Assembly: GCA_902827205.1 (NCBI GenBank)
Contig: LR792634.1
Location: 744,001 to 808,000 of the forward strand
Direction: 5' to 3'
DNA length: 64,000 nucleotides
Source: Methanocaldococcus lauensis
Lineage (GTDB): Archaea > AGJL01 > Methanococci > Methanococcales > Methanocaldococcaceae
The position numbers were made by a program, and so were the translations under genes. The first letter of the stretch is position 1. Every line of letters begins with the position of its first letter. Below the pieces are notes generated by a model that saw only the letters and a list, made by a program, of their open reading frames with translations, searched no databases and was not told the origin of the DNA. Below, piece by piece: positions 4,997-6,974 of the stretch.

Positions 4997-5740
4997 TTAC
5001 TTTTGATTAATTAAAAATTTCACAACTCTGTTAATTTCTGGAAGTTCAATATTTAGTTCTTCCCCTCTTAAACATAATTTTACTATATCTTTGTTTGTAG
5101 GAATTATAGCTATTACTTTATCTTTGTTAATATTTTCAAGAATTATGTCTTTTGTTTCATCATCTACCTTATTTACTATGAAATAAACTTTTTTACCAAG
5201 TTTTTCTCCAATTTCCTCTATTTTTTTTGCCAATCTTATAGACTCATAAGTTGGATCAACGATTCCAATAATTACATCACAGCCTCCCTCTACACCTCTA
5301 CCAAAATGCTCAATTCCAGCCTCAGTATCTACGATAACTATTTCATTATCTTTCAATTTTAAACTCTTTAATAGTTCTTTTAGTAAAACACCCATTGGAC
5401 ATGCACAACCTTCTCCAAAATCGTGGATCTTACCCATAGCTAAAAGCTTTATATTGTCTTTCTCAACTATGTAATCTTTTGGTAAATCGTCAATTGTCAT
5501 TTCATTAAATAAATCAACATTTTTTTTAGATTTTACCTTTTGCATGAAATTTTTTCTACCGCCTAAGTATTCTATAAAATCTTTTGGTTTATTCATCCCC
5601 AAAAATTTGTGCAAACTGATATTAGATTCATCTCCATCAATTACTAAAACATTGTAACCTTTTTTAGCGAATTCTTTTGCAATTAAAGAAGATATTGTAC
5701 TTTTTCCACATCCACCTTTTCCACATATAGAAATCTTCAT
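4997..5740 (-). CDS. CooC-type nickel-insertion ATPase (MinD/SIMIBI family)
   Basis: About 247 residues. A deviant Walker A motif, GKGGCGKST, starts at residue 7, followed by the switch segment VIDGDESN and VIVDTEAGIEHFGRGVEGG, typical of CooC. A CACPMG motif near the middle matches the CXC that binds metal at the CooC dimer interface. CooC proteins hydrolyse ATP to mature the nickel cluster of CO dehydrogenase, which here would be CODH/acetyl-CoA synthase. The start at 5740 is chosen because GGGGGTTATT precedes it; the ATG four codons upstream would overlap that site. The gene stands alone, with 103 nt to its downstream neighbour and a hairpin block upstream. Confidence 0.85.
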   Translation of the reverse strand: MKISICGKGGCGKSTISSLIAKEFAKKGYNVLVIDGDESNISLHKFLGMNKPKDFIEYLGGRKNFMQKVKSKKNVDLFNEMTIDDLPKDYIVEKDNIKLLAMGKIHDFGEGCACPMGVLLKELLKSLKLKDNEIVIVDTEAGIEHFGRGVEGGCDVIIGIVDPTYESIRLAKKIEEIGEKLGKKVYFIVNKVDDETKDIILENINKDKVIAIIPTNKDIVKLCLRGEELNIELPEINRVVKFLINQK

Positions 5741-5906
5741 AATAACCCCCATATGTTGTAATATTATTTAAAATACTATGTTTTTGGGTATAAATATGTT
5801 ATTGTGTTTCTTTTTATTTTAATATTTGGATAAAAAATTGATAAAAAATCTTTATCTTTTTTATATCCTTTTTGATTTCCATCCCCTTAAGGATCTGAGT
5901 TTTAAA

Positions 5907-5930
5907 CCCATAGGGCTCCGCCCTATTGGG
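5907..5930 (-). repeat. Hairpin element copy A (AATAGGG/CCCTAT family, minus orientation)
   Basis: Inverted repeat CCCATAGGGC (5907-5916), 3-nt loop, GCCCTATTGGG (5920-5930), with one bulged T. It is followed by ATACC. Read on the minus strand it is GGTATCCCAATAGGGC...CCCTATGGG, matching the copies at 6011-6040 and 10772-10800. Confidence 0.75.
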
Positions 5931-5941
5931 ATACCCGGGAT

Positions 5942-5969
5942 GCATTGCTTCGCTACCGCTCAGCAATGC
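5942..5969. repeat. Inverted repeat GCATTGCT/AGCAATGC
   Basis: A perfect 8-bp stem, GCATTGCT (5942-5949) with AGCAATGC (5962-5969), enclosing a 12-nt loop that is itself rich in CGCT/AGCG. It lies between hairpin copies A and B and could be the core of the same element or of a small RNA. Confidence 0.65.
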
Positions 5970-6010
5970 CTCTTAATTGTGGAGGGATAAAAAGGGCAAA
6001 TATTCGGGGG

Positions 6011-6040
6011 TATACCAATAGGGGGTGAAACCCCCTATGG
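6011..6040 (+). repeat. Hairpin element copy B
   Basis: CCAATAGGGGG (6015-6025), loop TGAAA, CCCCCTATGG (6031-6040), with one bulged A in the left arm and a preceding GGTATA. It is the strongest stem in the block (up to 10 bp with five G:C in a row), so it would fold even at high temperature. It is directly abutted by copy C. Confidence 0.78.
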
Positions 6041-6066
6041 AGCAATAGAGGGTCTCCCTCTATGCT
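6041..6066 (+). repeat. Hairpin element copy C, overlapping the argF stop codon
   Basis: AGCAATAGAGGG (6041-6052), 3-nt loop TCT, CCCTCTATGCT (6056-6066). The right arm contains the argF stop codon (6060-6062, minus strand), so the hairpin lies at the very end of the argF transcript and may act as its 3' end. Same AGCAATAG...CTATGCT ends as copy D at 10.8 kb. Confidence 0.75.
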
Positions 6067-6974
6067 TTAAATATAAATTTAAATACTCCTTTTTGAACAT
6101 GTAATCTATTTTCTGCCTCATCATAGACAACTGAATGTTCTCCATCAATTACATCGTCAGTTATTTCAAGTCCTCTATTTGCTGGAAGACAGTGCATAAC
6201 GATTGCATCATCTTTGGCATACTCTAATAATTTATTATTTATTTGGAATGGGGGAAATACTTTTAAAACTTCCTCCTTATTTTTCTCATCCCCCATACTT
6301 ACCCAAACATCAGTATATAGTATATCAGCATCTTTTACGGCATCTATTGGATCGTTAGTTAAAGTTAAAGAACCTTCTCCGTACTCTTCAATAATTTCTT
6401 TTGCCTTTAATACTACTTGGGCATTTGGCTCATAACCTTTTGGTGTTCCTACATATATATCCATTCCTACTAAGGCAGAACCTAAAATTAAAGAATTACA
6501 TACATTATTTCCATCTCCTAAGTAAGCAATTTTTAATCCTTTAAATTTTCCCTTATATTCTTTTATTGTCATTAAATCAGCCAATATCTGACAAGGATGT
6601 GCTAAATCACTTAGTGCATTTATAACTGGAACTGAGGAATACTTAGCTATCTCCTCTAAATCTCTATGCCTATAAACTCTTGCTACAATTGCATCTACAT
6701 ATCTACTCATAACCCTTGCAGTATCTTTTATTGACTCCTTCTTTCCTAAATGTATCTCATTTTGATTCATTATTAAAGGATGACCTCCTAACTCATAAAC
6801 AGCAATATCAAAACTCATTCTTGTTCTTGTTGAGGGCTTTTCAAATAATATTGCCACACTCTTACCATCTAAAACTTTTTCGTGTTTTTTTCTATTTTTT
6901 TTAAAATATATTCCATAGTCAATAATTTTCAATACATCCTCCCTACTCAAACAATCTAAGTCCAAAAGATGCAT
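6060..6974 (-). CDS. argF: Ornithine carbamoyltransferase
   Basis: A 304-residue protein of normal family length. It transfers the carbamoyl group of carbamoyl phosphate to ornithine, giving citrulline in arginine synthesis. The carbamoyl-phosphate motif STRTR is at residues 48-52, the HPCQ motif at 126-129, and the ornithine-loop HCLPA motif near residue 262. The start follows AGGTGAT with 4-nt spacing. It is a single gene, with no other arginine gene adjacent. The coding end runs into hairpin copy C, so its last codons lie inside the repeat arm (the final GCA TAG is part of the stem). Confidence 0.96.

Follow-up and report, generated by a model that had tools for sequence, protein, structure and literature searches.

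The GC-rich hairpin block between the cooC-like ATPase gene and argF of Methanocaldococcus lauensis is very probably (roughly 0.85) the scar that a lost CRISPR array has left at a rearrangement joint of argF and cooC. The core of the trailer remaining there is a mobile double-hairpin element, here called E, that duplicates a long target. Positions given below without a genome handle are those of the window, the whole stretch of 64,000 nucleotides that was analyzed. It lies in a genome of 1,479,331 bases in one contig (G000).

The hairpin block as the probable end of a lost CRISPR array

The block at 5883-6066 had drawn attention in a sequence-only reading because of its packed stems, all of which were found in place. 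Hairpin A (5908-5929, minus strand; arms CCATAGGGC/GCCCTATTGG) and hairpin B (5942-5969, minus strand; arms GCATTGCT/AGCAATGC) are the parts of element E. Hairpin A' (6015-6040; arms AATAGGGGGT/ACCCCCTAT) and hairpin C (6042-6065; arms GCAATAGAGGG/CCCTCTATGC) form a mosaic on the argF side, at about 5989-6066. The GC content was said to exceed that of the surroundings and the right end to cover the argF stop codon, and both statements are borne out. GC reaches 0.42-0.49 in 150-base windows over the block, compared with about 0.18-0.35 in adjacent DNA, and hairpin C overlaps the open reading frame of argF (ornithine carbamoyltransferase, 6060-6974, minus strand), supplying its last codon and stop.

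The pattern CAATAGGGN{0,12}CCCTAT occurs twice in the window, where 0.01 matches are expected, and two matches were reached in 0 of 100 shuffles. A search of the genome for further copies had been proposed in the same reading, which was to fall if there were none beyond the two loci of the window and no transcript. Such copies exist: the A-type hairpin pattern AATAGGGN{0,10}CCCTAT matches the genome at 28 places and its reversed control at none; together with the shuffles of the window, these counts place the hairpin beyond chance. The RNA fold of 5876-6070 is also more stable than that of shuffled sequences on both strands (z -3.4 and -4.0).

A CRISPR repeat variant at 5876-5907, overlooked in the sequence-only reading, marks the block as an array end. 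On the minus strand it reads GTTTAAAACTCAGATCCTTAAGGGGATGGAAA, and the array consensus is GTCTAAAATCAGACCCCTAAGGGGATGGAAA. Next to it lies E at 5908-5973 (66 bp; hairpin B then A on the minus strand), which is matched by a covariance model at G000:749908-749973 with 92.4 bits. The double hairpin and the terminal repeat variant make up an orphan CRISPR trailer module at 5876-5978 (minus strand). A genome search with 5876-6070 as query gave 260 matches in G000, including eight other long copies of 5876-5978 with 90-98% identity. Seven of these eight close six CRISPR arrays on the leader-distal side, two of them at the array at 291949, and the eighth (9122) is an orphan as well, with one truncated repeat. 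At one array (G000 293383-293666), the entire trailer is duplicated in tandem, and a spacer-like stretch separates the two copies.

On the minus strand, the trailer consists of a truncated repeat GTCTAAAATCAGACCCCTAAGGGG, a short AT-rich stretch, hairpin B, hairpin A, and a complete repeat variant beginning GTTTAAAA. The trailer in the window retains both hairpins and the terminal repeat, without inner repeat, spacer or leader. A leader scan of G000 found nine leaders, none of them inside the window. Six of the nine leader-bearing arrays have the full E trailer, the array at 822227 has a partial trailer with hairpin B only, and at 65090 and 318331 the array stops at its last repeat, with no trailer. 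Compared with a CRISPR array, the block has the family repeat as one variant (5876-5907), a single copy in place of several spacer-separated repeats, and no leader. The left part of the block is the end of a CRISPR array, not an array itself.

Similar modules occur elsewhere in G000. At 1190960-1191300, 921240-921540 and 352500-352720, hairpin modules adjoin a second CRISPR-like repeat family (GTCCATTAAAACAAGGATGGAAAC), whose repeats, like those of the first family, start with GTTTA where the hairpin ends. At 1202600-1203050, a hairpin mosaic adjoins a tRNA-like gene, the 3' end of which is apparently duplicated (CGCCCCGG.CGGGATTC.AAC).

A dispersed element with long target duplications

Copies of E are dispersed throughout the genus Methanocaldococcus. 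The covariance model, built from 58 aligned copies, found E in 12 of the 14 Methanocaldococcus genomes, with 1 to 42 matches each (23 in G000). It gave no match in the remaining two (G003 and G008), nor in 20 genomes from three other genera of the order. In a second, related genus, both genomes examined contain E (3 and 38 matches); most copies fetched from them retain hairpin B together with another second hairpin, and 9 of 30 are located at CRISPR repeats. No transposase or carrier of E was found, and plasmid and phage collections (blastn) and IMG/VR (exact pattern) contained no copy of it. A pattern scan of named genome contigs returned 21 stretches, six in Methanocaldococcus or Methanocaldococcaceae records and one in an unplaced Euryarchaeota MAG. 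The remaining 14, in unrelated organisms, were taken as chance matches.

The covariation analysis proposed in the sequence-only reading shows that the stems covary strongly. Paired cells amount to 98.0%, 12 of 18 pairs are changed on both sides, and these values were reached by 0 of 500 shuffles. All 10 modelled helix pairs of hairpin B covary across the copies; the support is weaker for hairpin A, which varies little among copies whose collection relied on a partly fixed motif. The structured RNA suggested in that reading would be compatible with the covarying stems, but an Rfam search of the whole window yielded no family at the gathering threshold.

Flanking duplications were analyzed for 66 of the 68 detected elements, after one spurious match and one short-flank copy, both at locus L088, had been dropped. 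Eighteen were set aside as CRISPR-linked, leaving 48, although one of these (L238) was later seen to adjoin CRISPR repeats. Among the 48 non-CRISPR copies, 26 have a same-strand flank duplication with a score of 16 or more and 22 have none above this cut. In the controls, 1.1% of 539 mismatched flank pairs passed, and so did 32 (2.7%) of 1200 positions drawn at random within these loci. The duplications that adjoin E (n = 23) are 16-62 bp long, with a median of 41; the right copy begins 0-5 bp after E in 22 of the 23, and the left copy ends 0-26 bp before it. In all 22 protein-coding cases, the copy inside the gene lies on the hairpin-B side, either at the 3' end with the stop codon or at the 5' end with the start codon, and in two cases 10-13 bases of the other copy fall within a neighboring ORF as well. 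One gene, sampled in different species, apparently accounts for at least three of the 22 (L041, L212 and L235), so that not every case counts as independent. With L083, these loci show an apparently orthologous iron-sulfur-type protein gene with E at its 3' end in four genomes; at L041 and L235, its reading frame seems to continue into E.

Empty sites in relatives contain a single target copy, followed by the sequence that is found after the right copy in the occupied allele. Such sites are clear at 7 of 10 loci, the best case being L202 compared with L246; L095 and L096 were uninformative, and L232 is common to E-bearing relatives. The left and right copies are about equally similar to the native sequence, as would be expected from duplication followed by later divergence. 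In the second genus, 12 of 30 copies have duplications, but the mismatched-pair control is also high (144 of 870), which makes this genus a weak independent test; single loci there, such as L274, L275 and L279, resemble real duplications. In the window, E has no inner repeat copy, and its own target duplication cannot be seen there. E is most probably a miniature, non-autonomous mobile element that inserts at CRISPR repeats as well as, usually, at gene ends; the flanking duplications in excess of the controls and the empty sites in relatives show that its insertion duplicates a long target of variable length.

In the ancestor of these arrays, E may have inserted at the last repeat, which would account for its position between two copies of the repeat, of which the inner is truncated. 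It would then have been carried along with array ends during array recombination. If a staggered insertion were primed by a nick and began in AT-rich DNA between genes, this would agree with three features: variable filler at one flank of E, a sharp joint at the opposite flank, and an orientation that is fixed with respect to genes. Target-primed, possibly RNA-templated insertion of E is conceivable.

These observations bear on two other explanations of the trailer. The hairpins could be a selected part of the CRISPR locus, such as a terminator, an insulator or a processing signal, and the dispersed copies could be captured trailers or terminators. This is unlikely, although the identical position at six of nine arrays, the strong stem covariation and the recurrence of the CRISPR-repeat association in the second genus are in its favor. 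Two arrays that have this leader show no hairpin after the last repeat, and most copies fetched across the genus are located away from CRISPR arrays, many at ordinary gene ends or starts with target duplications. Moreover, a terminator scan of 5600-6300 called no site, its patterns being bacterial and the host an archaeon. It is very improbable that E entered the arrays as a spacer through ordinary Cas1-Cas2 adaptation, without transposition. Its position between two CRISPR repeats is what a spacer would have, but the repeat-to-repeat distance is 105-106, compared with 66-74 for most units, the inner repeat is truncated with its ATGGAAA end gone, and duplications flank E at many non-CRISPR genes.

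CRISPR arrays at rearrangement joints

The reading of the block as the scar of a lost array rests on comparison with G005, a genome labelled as the same species, and with G009. In G005, argF borders the leader of the array at 1272932, and the cooC-like gene (4997-5752 in the window, minus strand) borders the trailer of a different array, at 884856. argF is also the leader-side flank of an array in G009, where this array ends at a third partner flank. From the terminal repeat on into cooC, the DNA is nearly identical in G000 and G005, and in G005 this junction belongs to an array of 23 repeats. Against the scar reading, the trailer next to cooC in G005 carries another variant of E than the window; arrays have thus exchanged the trailer, at least in part.

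For six joints of G000, both flanks could be traced in the fetched stretches of G005: argF/cooC, 892931, 822227, 258077, 137050 and 1234314. Only the last is unchanged between the two genomes. For the other G000 arrays, the fetched G005 stretches contain one of the two flanks or neither. The comparison shows that CRISPR arrays serve as chromosome rearrangement joints between two genomes of the same species. By this comparison, recombination between arrays probably produced the argF-cooC joint as well, and either arrangement may be the ancestral one. Leader, spacers and all repeats except the last would have been deleted afterwards at argF-cooC, leaving the trailer.

Two further features were observed in G005. 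A copy of the CRISPR leader (79%) is found on a second contig, possibly a plasmid (C2:335-561), and a TnpB-like ORF of 434 aa is located near the argF-side array (L123:3489-4793).

The putative junction of rearrangement and deletion is at 5977-5995, where 12-17 bases lie between the trailer and the argF-side hairpins. Outside their own locus, these bases (CCTTTTTATCCCTCCAC) gave matches of 11-13 bases only. A longer mosaic that adjoins argF in G005 begins with sequence homologous to 5989-6066; G009 has the same argF end, adjoining a simpler hairpin. The argF-side hairpins are members of a group of related dispersed hairpins. Downstream of argF in two other species (L102 in G004 and L103 in G013), the 3' end of argF is duplicated on either side of a hairpin-bearing insertion, suggesting that the argF end is a repeated insertion site.

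The trailer and its terminal repeat might instead have been inserted between argF and cooC as a single mobile unit, with no array ever present there. The window has no leader, and G005 contains another orphan trailer (1241384), as such insertion would allow. However, the same terminal repeat-to-cooC junction is part of the 23-repeat array in G005, and argF borders a leader in both G005 and G009, so this course of events is very improbable. It is also very improbable that the block is the argF 3' UTR or a small structured RNA regulating argF or cooC: its stable fold and covarying stems are in favor, but copies adjoin unrelated genes, at both 3' and 5' ends, and the window has no Rfam match.

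Relation to known elements and meaning

The trailer resembles other CRISPR trailers with a degenerate terminal repeat in its leader-distal position, its variant last repeat and its presence at several arrays of one genome. It differs from them in that the window trailer stands without an array and contains a dispersed mobile element. A 2006 paper by DeBoy et al. is reported, by its title, to connect CRISPR sequences to large inversions in Thermotogales, which are a different phylum.

Several known classes of elements share some features of E. Palindromic elements derived from IS200/IS605 insert without target duplication, and E, with its target duplications, was rejected as a member. REP elements have a RAYT transposase; a GTAG/CGTC tag is described for them. 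REP/BIME palindromes and mitochondrial double-hairpin elements are, like E, dispersed GC-rich hairpins in intergenic DNA. Neither is known to have long target duplications, which would set E apart.

Miniature inverted-repeat transposable elements (MITEs) of prokaryotes are typically flanked by a short target duplication of fixed size. E resembles them in being short, multicopy and non-coding and in duplicating its target. Unlike them, it has two internal hairpins and no terminal inverted repeats (in the alignment of copies, the ends AGAGGC...CCTATGG do not form an inverted repeat), and its duplications vary from 16 to 62 bp. Thus, E lacks two defining features of a classical MITE. The proposal of a mobile repeat or MITE remnant, made in the sequence-only reading, is therefore retained for the A+B double hairpin as a dispersed mobile element, but neither as a classical MITE nor for the block as a whole, which is most probably the end piece of a lost CRISPR array. 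A review of prokaryotic MITEs lists archaeal MITEs, with no Methanocaldococcus named in the passages concerned (PMC10969869). A literature search, with most subscription papers outside its reach, found no description of these elements in Methanocaldococcus.

Insertion with long target duplication has been published for restriction-modification genes in Helicobacter (Nobusato et al. 2000, as cited in PMC1643837 and PMC4978471). E shows the same long direct duplication flanking the insert and the same single copy in the empty allele of a relative; the published case, as cited there, concerns Helicobacter restriction-modification genes, whereas the insert here is a tiny archaeal hairpin element.

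Tentatively, and with somewhat less than even odds, E may represent a distinct class of archaeal miniature mobile element. Members of this class would have a covarying double or modular hairpin and insert directionally, with one end joined to AT-rich DNA between genes and the opposite end lying tens of bases within the neighboring gene, and the 16-62 bp of copied target would keep the gene whole. They would target CRISPR repeats in two genera and ride along with recombining arrays.

An odd hairpin block is thus explained, in all probability, as what is left of an immune memory locus that has disappeared. The more interesting part of the finding is the mobile hairpin with long, one-sided target duplications. 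It would belong to a tiny mobile hairpin family of Methanocaldococcus and a related genus, in which the target duplications are unusually long and preserve the gene.
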